A stretch of 34,530 bases of DNA from a bacterium (GTDB lineage Bacteria > Pseudomonadota > Gammaproteobacteria > Burkholderiales > SG8-41): NCBI GenBank assembly GCA_027310225.1, contig DAIDBG010000317.1, forward strand, positions 1 to 34,530, given 5' to 3'. The notes under the pieces were generated by a model, which saw only the letters and a program-made list of their open reading frames with translations, was not told the origin of the DNA and ran no database searches. Positions 19,113 to 25,808 of this stretch are shown here, in pieces. The number at the start of each line of letters is the position of its first letter. Position 1 is the first letter of the stretch. A program made the translations under genes and the position numbers.

Positions 19113-20810
19113 ATGGAACTGAACGGCGCCGAGATCGTGGTGCGCTGCCTCCAGGAAGAGGGGGTCGAGTACGTGTTCGGCTATCCCGACGGCGCCGTGC
19201 TGTTCATCTACGACGAGTTGTTCAAGCAGAACAAGGTGAAGCACGTCCTGGTGCGGCACGAGCAGGGCGCGGTGCATGCGGCTGACGGCTATGCGCGCTC
19301 CACCGAGAAAGTCGGCGTGTCACTCGTCACCTCCGGCCCGGGCGTGACCAATGCCGTGACCGGAATCGCGACCGCTCACATGGACTCGATTCCGCACGTC
19401 GTCATCACCGGCCAGGTACCGACTCACGCCATCGGCCTGGACGCGTTCCAGGAATGCGATGCGGTGGGCATCACGCGCCCGTGCGTGAAGCACAACTTCC
19501 TGGTGAAGGACGTGAAGGACATCGCTTTCACCATGAAGAAGGCGTTCTACATCGCCGCCACCGGCCGTCCGGGCCCGGTGGTGGTGGATATTCCGAAGGA
19601 CGTGACCACGGCCAGGGCCGAGTTCCACTATCCGGCGACCATCGCCATGCGCTCCTACAACCCGGTGGTCAAGGGGCACGCCGGCCAGATCAAGAAGGCA
19701 ACCCAGACGCTGATGAAGGCGAAGCGCCCGATGATCTACACCGGCGGCGGCGTGATCCTGGGCGGTGCCGCGGAAGAGCTCGCGCAGATCGTGCGCCTGC
19801 TGGGCTTCCCGTGCACCAACACCCTGATGGGGCTCGGCGCGTATCCCGCGACCGACCGCCAGTTCTTGGGCATGCTCGGCATGCACGGGACCTACGAGGC
19901 GAACATGGCGGTGCAGCATTGTGACGTGCTGCTCGCGATCGGCGCGCGCTTCGACGACCGCGTGATCGGCAATCCCAGGCACTTCTTCGCGGAGCAGCGC
20001 ACCATCATCCACATCGACATTGATCCGTCCTCGATCTCCAAGCGCGTGAAGGTGGATATCCCGATCGTCGGCAACGTGCGCGAGGTGCTGCGCGAGCTGA
20101 TCAGGCAGCTCGAAGCGGGCGGGGAGAAGCCCGACCAGGAGGCGCTCAAGACCTGGTGGACGCAGATCGAGCTGTGGCGCTCCCGGGACTGCCTCAAGTA
20201 CGACCGCTCGAGCCCGATCATCAAGCCGCAGTACGTGATCGAGAAGCTCTACGAGGTCACCCGGGGCGATGCGTTCGTGACCTCCGACGTCGGTCAGCAC
20301 CAGATGTGGGCGGCGCAGTTCTACAAGTTCGACAAGCCGCGGCGCTGGATCAATTCCGGCGGGCTCGGCACCATGGGCTTCGGGCTCCCGGCCGCGATGG
20401 GCGTGCAGCTTGCGCATCCCGGGGCGCCGGTGGCGTGCGTCACCGGCGAGGCCTCGATCCAGATGTGTATCCAGGAGCTCTCTACCTGCAGGCAGTACCG
20501 GCTGCCGATCAAGGTGGTGAACCTCAACAACAAGTACATGGGCATGGTGCGGCAGTGGCAGGAATTCTTCCACGGAAACCGCTACGCCGAGTCGTACATG
20601 GACGCCCTGCCCGACTTCGTGAAGCTCGCCGAATCGTACGGCCACGTCGGCATGAAGATCGAGAAGCCGGAGGACGTGGAGCCCGCGCTCAAGGAGGCGT
20701 TCTCGCGCAAGAAGGACCTCGTGTTCATGGATTTCGTGACCGACCAGACCGAGAACGTGTTCCCGATGGTCCCCGGCGGCAAGGGACTCTCGGAGATGAT
20801 CCTGGTATGA
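19113..20810 (+). CDS. ilvI: Acetolactate synthase large subunit
   Basis: A 565-residue TPP enzyme that condenses pyruvate with pyruvate or 2-oxobutyrate, the first common step of valine and isoleucine synthesis. It shows the N-terminal MELNGAEIVVRCLQEEGVEYVFGYPDGAV and the catalytic glutamate in VRHEQGAVHAADGYAR. FAD-region blocks and the TPP-Mg segment GEASIQMCIQELSTCRQYRLPIKVVNLNNKYMGMVRQWQEFF follow. Glu in place of Asp at the start of the TPP motif is, to my knowledge, normal in betaproteobacterial copies. It overlaps ilvH by four bases, so subunit synthesis is coupled. Confidence 0.96.
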   Translation: MELNGAEIVVRCLQEEGVEYVFGYPDGAVLFIYDELFKQNKVKHVLVRHEQGAVHAADGYARSTEKVGVSLVTSGPGVTNAVTGIATAHMDSIPHVVITGQVPTHAIGLDAFQECDAVGITRPCVKHNFLVKDVKDIAFTMKKAFYIAATGRPGPVVVDIPKDVTTARAEFHYPATIAMRSYNPVVKGHAGQIKKATQTLMKAKRPMIYTGGGVILGGAAEELAQIVRLLGFPCTNTLMGLGAYPATDRQFLGMLGMHGTYEANMAVQHCDVLLAIGARFDDRVIGNPRHFFAEQRTIIHIDIDPSSISKRVKVDIPIVGNVREVLRELIRQLEAGGEKPDQEALKTWWTQIELWRSRDCLKYDRSSPIIKPQYVIEKLYEVTRGDAFVTSDVGQHQMWAAQFYKFDKPRRWINSGGLGTMGFGLPAAMGVQLAHPGAPVACVTGEASIQMCIQELSTCRQYRLPIKVVNLNNKYMGMVRQWQEFFHGNRYAESYMDALPDFVKLAESYGHVGMKIEKPEDVEPALKEAFSRKKDLVFMDFVTDQTENVFPMVPGGKGLSEMILV

Positions 20811-21298
20811 GGCACATCGTGTCCGTCCTCCTCGAGAACGAGGCCGGCGCGCTGTCGCGGGTGGCGGGCCTGTTCTCCGCGCGCGGCTACAACATCGAGT
20901 CGCTTACCGTGGCGCCGACCGAGGACCCGACGCTCTCGCGCATGACCATCGTCACCGGCGGGTCCGACGAGGTGATCGAGCAGATCACCAAGCAGCTGAA
21001 CAAGCTGGTTGACGTGGTGAAGGTGGTCGATCTCTCCGACGGCGATCACATCGAGCGCGAGCTGATGCTGGTCAAGGTGCGCGCGGTGGGAAAGGACCGC
21101 GAGGAGATGAAGCGCATGGCGGACATCTTCCGCGGGCGCATCATCGACGTAACCGACAAGGATTACACCATCGAGCTGACGGGCACCGGCTCCAAGCTCG
21201 ACGCCTTTCTCAAGGCGATCGACCGCAGCGCGATACTGGAGACGGTGCGCACCGGCGCCTCCGGCATCGGCCGCGGCGACCGGGTATTGAGAGTCTAG
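20807..21298 (+). CDS. ilvH: Acetolactate synthase small (regulatory) subunit
   Basis: The start is ATG 20807 within the ATGA overlap with ilvI; the track's 20156 start is a shadow. The 163 residues equal the E. coli IlvH length. The ACT domain is plain: MRHIVSVLLENEAGALSRVAGLFSARGYNIESLTVAPTEDPTLSRMTIV, followed by the C-terminal half (ELMLVKVRAVGKDREEMKRMADIFRGRIIDV). It binds valine and confers feedback inhibition on the large subunit. Confidence 0.96.
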   Translation: MRHIVSVLLENEAGALSRVAGLFSARGYNIESLTVAPTEDPTLSRMTIVTGGSDEVIEQITKQLNKLVDVVKVVDLSDGDHIERELMLVKVRAVGKDREEMKRMADIFRGRIIDVTDKDYTIELTGTGSKLDAFLKAIDRSAILETVRTGASGIGRGDRVLRV

Positions 21299-21322
21299 CT
21301 TTCAACGACCGGCCGCTGATAA

Positions 21323-22365
<1,043 letters not shown>

Positions 22366-22366
<1 letters not shown>

Positions 22367-22395
22367 CGATGAGTGATGACTGATGAGTGATGAAT
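22366..22395. repeat. Tandem GATGAGTGATGA repeat at the psd start
   Basis: GATGAGTGATGA occurs twice, separated by CT, between ilvC and psd. The psd ATG (22383) lies inside the second copy. The sequence is one arm of the ATGATGAAT repeat family seen at 13146-13226 and 16955-17033. Confidence 0.6.
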
Positions 22396-23090
22396 CGAAA
22401 ACCCTGGGTGGTGAGCCCGGCGCATCGCACCTGACGCCCGCCGGCGCGGCTTATTATCCCCACCCCATCATTGCCCGCGAGGGCTGGCCGTTCATCGCGG
22501 CGGCGGCCGCCGCTGCGCTGCTGGTTCACTGGCTGGCGGGCCCGTGGTGGGCCGCGCCGCTGTGGGTCGTCGTCGCCTTCGTGGTGCAGTTCTTCCGCGA
22601 CCCCCCGCGCACGGTGCCGCAGGAGCAGAAGGCGGTGCTCTCGCCCGCCGACGGCCGCATCGTCACGGTCGAGCGCGCGCGCGACCCCTACCTCGAGCGC
22701 GACGCGCTCAAGATGAGCGTGTTCATGAACGTGTTCAACGTCCATTCCAACAGGAGCCCGGTGGACGGAGAGATTCACAAGACCTGGCACCATGCCGGCA
22801 GGTTCTTCAACGCCGCGCTGTCGAAGTCCTCGCTTGAGAACGAGCGCGCGGCGCTGTGGATCAGGACCCCGGGCGGGGCGGACGTGACCTGCGTGCAGAT
22901 CGCGGGGCTGATCGCGCGCCGCATCCTGTGCTACGTCGGGACCGGCCAACGCCTGGCGCGCGGCGAGCGCTACGGCTTCATCCGCTTCGGCTCGCGCGTG
23001 GACGTTTACCTGCCGCCGGCGTCGCGACCGGTCGCGGCCGTGGGCGACAAGGTGTACGCCACGGAATCCGTGCTGGCGCTGTTGCCGTGA
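22383..23090 (+). CDS. psd: Phosphatidylserine decarboxylase proenzyme (short type)
   Basis: A 235-residue protein. The core starts at [16 protein letters not shown] and continues through two adjacent hydrophobic helices, [29 protein letters not shown], and the C-terminal [11 protein letters not shown]. The GS pair in RFGSRVD is the self-cleavage site that creates the pyruvoyl group. It makes phosphatidylethanolamine from phosphatidylserine. The first 23 residues before YYPHP are not family-like, and their ATG sits in a repeat; no better start is visible. It is followed by pssA, the preceding step of the pathway. Confidence 0.93.
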
Positions 23091-23169
23091 ATATGAATAG
23101 TAAAAACGGAGAAAAAAAGTAGGGTGCATGCTTTACTGTTCGCCGTTCATCATTTACCGTTAACCCGCC

Positions 23170-24006
23170 GTGTACGAGCCGCGCGAACACAAGCTTTTCA
23201 TCAAGTCGCGCTTTGCCCGGCGCGGCATCTACTGGCTTCCCAACCTGTTCACGACGGTCGCCCTCTTCGCCGGCTTCTACGCCATCGTGCAGGCGATGCT
23301 CGGCCGCTTCGAGCAGGCGGCGATAGCGATCTTCGTGGCGATGGTGTTCGACGGGCTCGACGGCCGCGTTGCGCGCCTGACGCACACGCAGAGCGCCTTC
23401 GGTGCCGAGTACGACAGCCTCGCCGACATGGTGTCCTTCGGCGTGGCGCCCGCGCTGGTGGTTTACGTATGGGCGCTCAAGGATTTCGCGGCGATAAAGG
23501 AGATCGCGATGCTCGGGCCCTGGCTCAGCACCAAGCTTGGCTGGATCGCGGCCTTCATCTACACCGTCTGCGCCGCGCTGCGGCTCGCGCGCTTCAACAC
23601 CACGCTCGATATCGCCGACAAGCGCTTCTTCCAGGGCCTGCCGAGCCCGGCGGCGGCGAGCCTCATCGCGGGGATGGTCTGGGCGCTGAACGAGTACCAG
23701 ATCAAGGGTACCGACGTGAGGTGGCTTGCCTGGGCGCTGACGATGTTCGCCGGCCTCACCATGGTGAGCAACTTCAAGTTCTACAGCGGCAAGGACATCA
23801 ACCTGCGCAAGAGCGTGCCGTTTTCCGCCGTCGTGGCCATCACGTTCGGCCTGGTGGCGCTGTTCATGTTCTCGAGCACGCTGCCCGAGATGCTGTTCCT
23901 GCTGTTCGCCGGCTACGGCGTATCGGGATACGTGATCTGGATCTACGAGCAGGTCCGAAACCGCACCATCGGCCGCACCCCGCCGCCCTCTGCCCCCGGC
24001 GCCTGA
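23170..24006 (+). CDS. pssA: CDP-diacylglycerol--serine O-phosphatidyltransferase
   Basis: A 278-residue membrane protein with a GTG start (MYEPREHKLFIKSRFARRGIYWLPNLFTTVALFAGF). The CDP-alcohol phosphotransferase motif is complete: DGLDGRVARLTHTQSAFGAEYDSLADMVSFGVAPAL, supplying the four aspartates. About seven hydrophobic segments follow. It makes phosphatidylserine, which Psd then decarboxylates. No strong ribosome site is visible before the GTG, and the 79-bp gap after psd contains more repeat-like sequence (TTCGCCGTTCATCATTTACCG). Confidence 0.93.
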   Translation: MYEPREHKLFIKSRFARRGIYWLPNLFTTVALFAGFYAIVQAMLGRFEQAAIAIFVAMVFDGLDGRVARLTHTQSAFGAEYDSLADMVSFGVAPALVVYVWALKDFAAIKEIAMLGPWLSTKLGWIAAFIYTVCAALRLARFNTTLDIADKRFFQGLPSPAAASLIAGMVWALNEYQIKGTDVRWLAWALTMFAGLTMVSNFKFYSGKDINLRKSVPFSAVVAITFGLVALFMFSSTLPEMLFLLFAGYGVSGYVIWIYEQVRNRTIGRTPPPSAPGA

Positions 24007-24017
24007 GGGCGCAGGCC

Positions 24018-24046
24018 TTGCCGGGGACGCGGAATGCCTATATATT
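24018..24046 (+). promoter_or_regulatory. Candidate sigma70 promoter for leuA leader
   Basis: TTGCCG (24018-24023), a 17-bp spacer and TATATT (24041-24046). A transcript would start about 24053-24054, that is, at or next to the AUG of the leucine-rich leader peptide. Confidence 0.55.
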
Positions 24047-24053
24047 TCACGTT

Positions 24054-24131
24054 ATGCATTGCAGGGCCCAAGTCGATCCGTCGCCCCGTTCCGCCAGCCT
24101 CCTGCTGGCCCGCCTGCTGCTGCGCCGCTAG
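24054..24131 (+). CDS. Leucine-rich leader peptide of leuA (attenuation candidate)
   Basis: A 25-codon ORF missing from the ORF track: MHCRAQVDPSPR then SASLLLARLLLRR and stop. Six of the last ten codons are leucine (CTC CTG CTG ... CTG CTG CTG), in two runs of three, the arrangement expected for ribosome-mediated attenuation of a leucine-synthesis gene. It lies 135 bp before leuA and follows a plausible promoter by only 7 nt, so it would be leaderless. It has no Shine-Dalgarno sequence, consistent with that. The codon runs overlap an RNA hairpin. Confidence 0.6.
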   Translation: MHCRAQVDPSPRSASLLLARLLLRR

Positions 24132-24227
24132 GGCGCACATCACACTTTTCCCACAATCTGTTGTTGGTCCGGCGCGGCAGGTACCGCGGCGGGAAGACTA
24201 CTTATCGAAGGCGCGTGCTTCCGGACC
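24093..24227 (+). promoter_or_regulatory. Successive hairpins of a putative leuA attenuator
   Basis: GCCAGC/GCTGGC (24093-24098, 24104-24109) covers the first Leu run. GCGCC/GGCGC (24122-24126, 24132-24136) encloses the leader stop codon. CGCGG/CCGCG (24173-24177, 24184-24188) sits inside a longer pairing, GGTCCGG/CCGGACC (24166-24172, 24221-24227). No U-run follows, so termination would have to be Rho-dependent or control could act on translation. Confidence 0.45.
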
Positions 24228-24266
24228 GGGCGGGGACGGCAGGCCGCAGAAACCCTGGAGACCTCC

Positions 24267-25808
24267 ATGGCCAAGGAAAAACTGATCGTTTTTGACACGA
24301 CGATGCGCGACGGCGAGCAGAGCCCGGGCGCATCCATGACCAAGGAAGAAAAGCTGCGCATCGCGCGCCAGCTCGAGCGCATGCGGGTGGACGTGATCGA
24401 AGCGGGCTTCCCTGCCGCGAGCGACGGCGACTTCGATGCGGTGCGCGCGGTCGCCTCCATCATCAAGGACAGCACCGTGTGCGGGCTCGCGCGCGCCAAC
24501 GAGAAGGACATCCGGCGCTGCGGCGAGGCCGTGAGGGTGGCGAAGCGCCCGCGCGTGCACACCTTCATCGCGACTTCCCCGATACACATGGAGAAGAAGT
24601 TGCGCATGGAGCCCTCGCAGGTGATCGAGCAGGCGGTGCGCGCGGTGGGGTGGGCGCGCGGCTACACCGACAACGTCGAGTTCTCGCCCGAGGACGCGGG
24701 GCGCTCCGACATCGACTTTCTCTGCCGCATACTCGAGCGGGTGATCAAGGCCGGCGCCACCACCATCAACATTCCGGACACGGTGGGCTATACGCTGCCG
24801 GAGCACTTTGGCAAGCTCATCCGCACGCTCCGCGAACGCATCCCCGGTTCCGACAAGGTGGTGTGGTCCGTGCACTGCCACAACGACCTCGGGCTCGCGG
24901 TCGCCAACTCGCTCGCCGCGGTGCTGAACGGCGCGCGCCAGGTCGAGTGCACCGTGAACGGGCTGGGCGAGCGCGCCGGCAACGCAGCGCTGGAGGAGAT
25001 CGTGATGGCGGTGCGCACGCGCCAGGACATGTTCCCGTGCGACACCGACGTTGATGCCACCCAGATCGTACCCGCGAGCCGCCTCGTCTCCGGCATCACG
25101 GGCTTCCCGGTGCAGCCCAACAAGGCGATCGTGGGGGCGAACGCCTTCGCCCACGAGTCGGGCATCCACCAGGACGGCGTGATCAAGAGCCGCGAGACCT
25201 ACGAGATCATGCGCGCCGAGGACGTGGGCTGGAACGCGAACCGCCTGGTGCTCGGCAAGCACTCCGGCCGCAACGCCTTCCGCCAGCGGCTCACGGAGCT
25301 CGGCATCGTACTGGAGTCGGAGGAAGCGCTGAACGCCGCCTTCAAGCGCTTCAAGGACCTTGCCGACAAGAAGCACGAGATCTTCGACGAGGATCTGCAC
25401 GCGCTGATCACCGAGGAAAACCTCGAGCACGCCGTGGACGAACATTACCGGCTGGTTTCGCTGATCGCGCATTCCGAGACCGGCGAGTCGCCGTACGCGA
25501 GGATCGTGGTGACCGAAAACGGCAGGGAGCGGAAGGCCGAGGCGAAGGGGAGCGGCCCGGTGGACGCCTCGTTCAAGGCGCTCGAGGCGGTCGCGAAGAG
25601 CGGTGCGGAGCTGCTGCTCTATTCGGTCAACAACATCACCACCGGCACCGATGCCCAGGGCGAGGTCACGGTGCGCCTCTCCAAGGGCGGGCGGATCGTG
25701 AACGGGCAGGGCGCCGACACCGACATCGTGGTCGCTTCGGCCAAGGCCTACATCAATGCGCTCAACAAGCTGCACTCCAGGCTGGAACGGGTGAACCCGC
25801 AGGTCTGA
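24267..25808 (+). CDS. leuA: 2-isopropylmalate synthase
   Basis: A 513-residue enzyme, the first committed step of leucine synthesis (acetyl-CoA plus 2-oxoisovalerate). The catalytic barrel shows [16 protein letters not shown] and the metal-binding [31 protein letters not shown] and HESGIHQDG lead into the linker and a C-terminal LeuA regulatory dimer domain that binds leucine (from about residue 390). GGAG at 24257 is the ribosome site. It ends the ilv-psd-pssA cluster but has its own promoter and leader peptide upstream. Confidence 0.96.

Follow-up and report, generated by a model that had tools for sequence, protein, structure and literature searches.

The leuA gene in this Burkholderiales genome is preceded by a short leucine-rich open reading frame (ORF). 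We read it as the leader peptide of a leucine-sensing attenuator of leuA, in which the leader ORF would be translated from a leaderless transcript; we put the probability of this reading at roughly 0.6. Leader-peptide control of some kind is very probable, and a role for Rho as the terminator, taken alone, stands at slightly under even odds. Coordinates refer to the window, the whole 34,530-nt stretch of DNA that was analysed. The leader lies in the 260-nt gap between pssA and leuA, within a branched-chain amino-acid cluster (19113–25808) made up of the acetolactate synthase large and small subunits, ilvC, a psd-like gene, pssA, the leader and leuA. The features of the locus are as follows.

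23170–24006, forward strand: pssA (TIGR00473), the upstream neighbour, outside the device.
24018–24023, forward strand: −35 element TTGCCG, mostly (C)TTGC at the same place in relatives.
24041–24046, forward strand: −10 element TATATT, 17 nt from the −35 element; transcription is predicted to start at about 24053.
24054–24131, forward strand: leader ORF of 25 codons plus TAG, encoding MHCRAQVDPSPRSASLLLARLLLRR, without a Shine-Dalgarno sequence and ending 135 nt before leuA.
24093–24109, forward strand: hairpin P1, GCCAGC-CTCCT-GCTGGC, −10.5 kcal/mol; 4 of 200 shuffles fold equally well.
24099–24107, forward strand: Leu run 1, codons 16–18 (CTC CTG CTG), in the loop and 3′ arm of P1.
24114–24122, forward strand: Leu run 2, codons 21–23 (CTG CTG CTG), adjoining P2 on its 5′ side; alignments A1 and A2 show no variation in the final CTG-C.
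24121–24137, forward strand: hairpin P2, UGCGCC-GCUAG-GGCGCA, starting in the last Leu codon, with the stop codon in its loop.
24138–24159, forward strand: linker, G-free, C-rich and unstructured (0 kcal/mol); it may form part of a Rho loading site.
24168–24193, forward strand: hairpin P3, −20.1 kcal/mol, z −2.5, not followed by a U-run in the window.
24257–24260, forward strand: Shine-Dalgarno sequence GGAG of leuA, read from the sequence.
24267–25808, forward strand: leuA, 2-isopropylmalate synthase (NCBIfam NF002087, 919.9 bits), the regulated gene.

No further leader was seen by eye before the first gene of the cluster, in the ilvI upstream region of the window, and the genome holds no second copy of this one (next match E 0.035).

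The initial annotation had described a 25-codon ORF with two triple-leucine runs and taken it for a leader peptide ahead of leuA, to be compared among relatives. The ORF is as described, and it has the make-up of a leader-peptide attenuator: a short ORF, enriched in codons for the end product of the pathway (leucine), placed before a pathway gene (leuA). In members of the same genus and family, ORFs that close with LLLAGLLLR and a few more residues stand before leuA, and each has TATATT a few nucleotides ahead of its ATG; DNA similarity among relatives is focused at about 24089–24178. Because matches of a covariance model run across the class were weak and mostly due to chance, we read leuA upstream regions directly. 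In 131 such regions from the family and order (Burkholderiales), a rule blind to the promoter, which asked for a Leu-rich ORF ending 55–170 nt before leuA, detected such an ORF at the leader position in 80, so that the proposed leader and its Leu codons are borne out over many families. Other orders of the class have a Leu-rich ORF in 54 of 71 leuA upstream regions, with the leaderless spacing described below in 25 of these. A pattern scan of an independent collection of named genomes, with TATATT-(5–9)-ATG-(40–70)-CTGCTGCTGCGC, returned 80 readable loci; 56 lie about 90–150 nt before leuA, among them loci in Candidatus Nitrotoga, Gallionella, Sulfuricella, Sulfurimicrobium, Methylophilaceae and Sterolibacterium, and the remainder look like chance matches. 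By this comparison, a leuA leader appears to be present in many betaproteobacteria and in other gammaproteobacterial orders.

Among the 77 leaders anchored to leuA the median length is 28 residues, and leucine makes up 26% of the peptide overall and 40% of its last 12 residues, although a few leaders have merely two or three Leu near the end. In one genome (G068, locus L046) the promoter and ATG are retained (TATATTTCCCCGATG) and the Leu run has been lost from the ORF, which is possibly a decayed leader.

The promoter assigned by the initial annotation, TTGCCG-17-TATATT with the leader ATG 7 nt downstream of TATATT, is correct and is the sole sigma-70-like site found between 23900 and 24400 (shuffled sequences average 0.1). 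The usual spacing rule predicts transcription from about 24053, one base before the A of the leader ATG, so the promoter match predicts a leaderless transcript with a putative 5′ untranslated region of 0–4 nt. The spacing recurs across many families: an in-frame ATG lies 5–10 nt after a TATAAT-like box (TATATT or TATAGT) in 72 of the 80 Leu-leader Burkholderiales, compared with 0 of 160 cases in the two other frames. A Shine-Dalgarno-like motif was found in none of 97 leaders with this spacing (72 from Burkholderiales and 25 from other orders).

The hairpins that had been noted over the Leu codons and the stop codon are indeed there, P1 over Leu run 1 and P2 over the last Leu codon and the stop. 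The arms of P1, which lies 5′ of the final Leu run, coevolve (z about 6; 0 of 2,000 arm permutations), with two-sided changes in 8 of 9 pairs. Across 130 genomes the arms of P2 pair better with each other than with arms swapped between genomes (z = −14.7). In Burkholderiales P2 takes the form CUGCGC-loop-GCGC, the loop being UUCG, GCAA or another sequence, and the stop codon falls either 3′ of the stem or, as in this genome, within the loop; other orders of the class have CUGCCC-UGA-GGGGCAG, CUGCCG-UAA-GGCAG or CUACCC-UAC-GGGUAG. Since the stem is rebuilt by compensation across orders and arm swapping weakens its pairing, the constraint on P2 appears to be mainly on the RNA and not on the peptide. 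The arms of P3 also coevolve (z about −5). In several other gammaproteobacterial orders a further motif, CCTGGCGAGG, follows the leader stop codon, often succeeded by AAACGCA (L159, L161, L163, L169, L172, L188, L190, L191, L197, L209, L220 and others); its outer pairs covary and it looks like a small conserved hairpin.

The RNA constraint also bears on the idea that the leader works in trans, either as an RNA or through its hydrophobic peptide, like rnTrpL and peTrpL of Sinorhizobium meliloti (PMC7298713). Beyond this precedent, recurrent peptide ends within Burkholderiales (LLLAGLLLRxRAR and LLLRxAR) would fit such a role. However, peptides also end in LLLRR, LLLRP, LLLRLRGA, LLLRASAN or LRLLP while the hairpin is retained, and therefore the constraint lies on the RNA and the Leu codons; we consider action in trans improbable.

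The full 217-nt leader folds no better than shuffled sequence, so the evidence for the device is comparative and not energetic: most relatives share the ORF, the spacing of the promoter, the Leu run and the hairpins. The poor overall fold, and the frequency of CTG as a codon in such genomes, are what would be expected of a chance ORF in a GC-rich stretch full of Leu codons. Against this stand the conserved link between promoter and in-frame ATG, the compensatory changes in the hairpins and the position of 56 of the 80 independent pattern matches just before leuA. Conservation already refutes the chance reading, which we give next to no probability, and the ORF at 24054–24131 is best taken as a conserved leader.

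How translation of the leader would be read out was considered in three forms. The initial annotation saw the layout of classical leu attenuation, in which ribosome stalling favours an antiterminator at the expense of an intrinsic terminator (here P2 or P3). The Leu codons do lie between covarying hairpins, and terminator-like sites occur in 12 of 77 relatives against 4% in shuffles, an enrichment of about fourfold, with several at P3; in some of these species T-rich sequence comes after P3, a hint of an intrinsic terminator in them. The window, however, has no U-run or intrinsic terminator, as the initial annotation itself had correctly remarked of the U-run, and within 14 nt after P2 the longest T run is at most 4 nt in 76 of 77 genomes. 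The covariation of alternative pairings that it had proposed examining did not appear: a search of 11 segments found no coevolving antiterminator or mutually exclusive pairing, P1 and P3 alone coevolving, and it is P1, P2 and P3 themselves that covary. Rfam, its leader families included, gave no match at the gathering threshold in the window, nor at E up to 1 in 23950–24330. Because a U-run terminator, alternative pairings and an Rfam match were each sought and none was found, we place the device outside the classical leuL type, although it would work like an attenuator, and classical attenuation is unlikely.

A translational readout, in which stalling on the leader alters access to the leuA ribosome-binding site, would suit the short distance between leader and leuA (72–147 nt in most relatives), and the leuA start is predicted to be somewhat less open with the leader than without it (0.41 versus 0.535). 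The leader of another genome gives an equal effect (0.405), however, and no segment of the leader coevolves with the leuA ribosome-binding site. Sequestration of the leuA start by the leader was rejected on the grounds of this same drop with a foreign leader, and we regard translational attenuation as quite unlikely.

The initial annotation had also allowed for a non-canonical terminator, either Rho-dependent or translational; access to the leuA start being independent of the leader, the translational option finds no support, and the Rho-dependent option fits a strong excess of C over G. The ratio of C to G in the leader plus 30 nt exceeds 1 in all 77 anchored leaders (median 1.69, compared with 0.95 upstream and 0.94 downstream), and the first 15 nt after P2 are about 50% C and 3–5% G in 77 genomes. 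A rut-like pattern occurs in 74 of the 77 leaders and in 34 of 77 upstream controls. A C-rich, G-poor, unstructured Rho loading region is thus present as a purely compositional signature. Since leader and linker are richer in C than in G in every anchored leader, we infer that the readout with the best support is Rho-dependent attenuation in which a ribosome held at the Leu codons acts as the gate. C-richness could instead serve leaderless initiation by keeping the 5′ region unstructured.

In Escherichia coli tnaC and other Rho-dependent leaders, a ribosome on the leader peptide decides the access of Rho. tnaC senses free tryptophan through nascent-chain arrest, unlike the run of Leu codons in the leader described here. 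In the Rho-gated model, whose 5′ end, translation, stalling and Rho termination we infer from the sequence, RNA polymerase would start at about 24053 and a 70S ribosome would load on the 5′-terminal AUG. With ample Leu-tRNA the ribosome would pass the Leu codons, reach the stop codon inside P2 and depart; P2 would then close, the C-rich, G-poor leader and linker would be left bare, and Rho would load and halt transcription ahead of leuA; P3 may serve as a pause site or a protected 3′ end. When leucine is scarce the ribosome would stall at the Leu codons that adjoin the 5′ arm of P2 and reach into it, holding P2 open, occupying the loading region and excluding Rho, so that leuA would be transcribed. 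A ribosome halted at these codons would leave the linker itself uncovered, so protection from Rho would require a loading site that extends into the ORF. More tentatively, and with odds somewhat below even, the device may stand for a class of leaderless Rho-gated attenuators in Betaproteobacteria and other gammaproteobacterial orders that dispense with terminator and antiterminator hairpins, the stop-codon hairpin and G-free tract reporting the arrival of the ribosome at the end of the leader.

The leader travels with leuA and not with pssA: when 450 nt were searched for pssA, it was detected beside 40 of the 77 anchored leaders and undetected beside 37. In one genome (G235; L142, 1450–1850) a leader, MNIQQTRLLPSPLRQSLLPGLGLLLRLART, and P2 precede a distant LeuA of the yeast/actinobacterial-like type and not that genome's leuA ortholog. 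A leader ahead of a different type of leuA suggests that the device moved, or was kept, during gene exchange.

Two kinds of locus without the leader were also seen. In L067, L070 and L071 (G153, G115 and G072) pssA abuts or overlaps leuA and the leader is absent, so leuA is probably read there from a promoter further upstream. About 18 Burkholderiales genomes that lack the leader have an HTH-like ORF (MQLDIERLI.DFGGP..LAEA...VSRAAIYKWRERGSLPL) directly before leuA (L099, L101, L102, L104, L109–L111, L114–L116, L118, L121, L126–L128 and L138–L140). It mostly lacks a stop codon before leuA, giving open frames of about 600 amino acids, and its Pfam matches are sub-threshold HTH/Cro matches alone; it may have taken the leader's place as a regulator coupled or fused to leuA.

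Attenuators of proteobacteria were reportedly surveyed in 2004. In the openly accessible literature searched, we found no leuA leader described for these groups, and an earlier report is possible. The E. coli leuL leader (Rfam leu leader) also places a run of Leu codons before leuA; it has a 5′ untranslated region with a Shine-Dalgarno sequence and a U-run terminator, and the leader here has no match to its Rfam family. Closer in its 5′ end is S. meliloti trpL, a leaderless attenuator peptide whose RNA begins with the leader ATG, before an amino-acid biosynthesis gene (PMC7298713); here the 5′ end is predicted. It differs in sensing Trp and not Leu, in belonging to the Alphaproteobacteria and in having a transcription terminator in its attenuator, and the two have no known sequence kinship. 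Corynebacterium glutamicum ilvL, the ilvBNC attenuator, resembles the predicted form of the leader in its near-leaderless start, with +1 one nucleotide from the start codon, and in the branched-chain amino-acid codons of its peptide (PMC11857589), but this is an actinobacterial system with a terminator-hairpin model that controls ilvBNC and not leuA. Judging from a cited title, the leaderless polycysteine upstream ORFs of mycobacteria are likewise short ORFs with a run of the sensed residue and an attenuator role (PMC13236596), differing in residue (cysteine) and in host. Start-site mapping has found leaderless mRNAs in the betaproteobacteria Burkholderia cenocepacia (PMC4603805) and Cupriavidus metallidurans (PMC7563307); the main texts of these two papers do not mention leuA. 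In Pseudomonas putida, LeuA is 4.2-fold higher when the tRNA modifier TruA is lost (PMC7822408), which would fit attenuation at Leu codons if that species carries the leader.

These observations suggest a mode of leuA control for much of the Betaproteobacteria and for several further orders, carried by devices of a kind that escapes terminator-based scans. Leaderless leader peptides, few of which are known, would gain a leucine-sensing member, and the device offers a clean test of whether a stalled ribosome can control Rho when no terminator hairpin is present.
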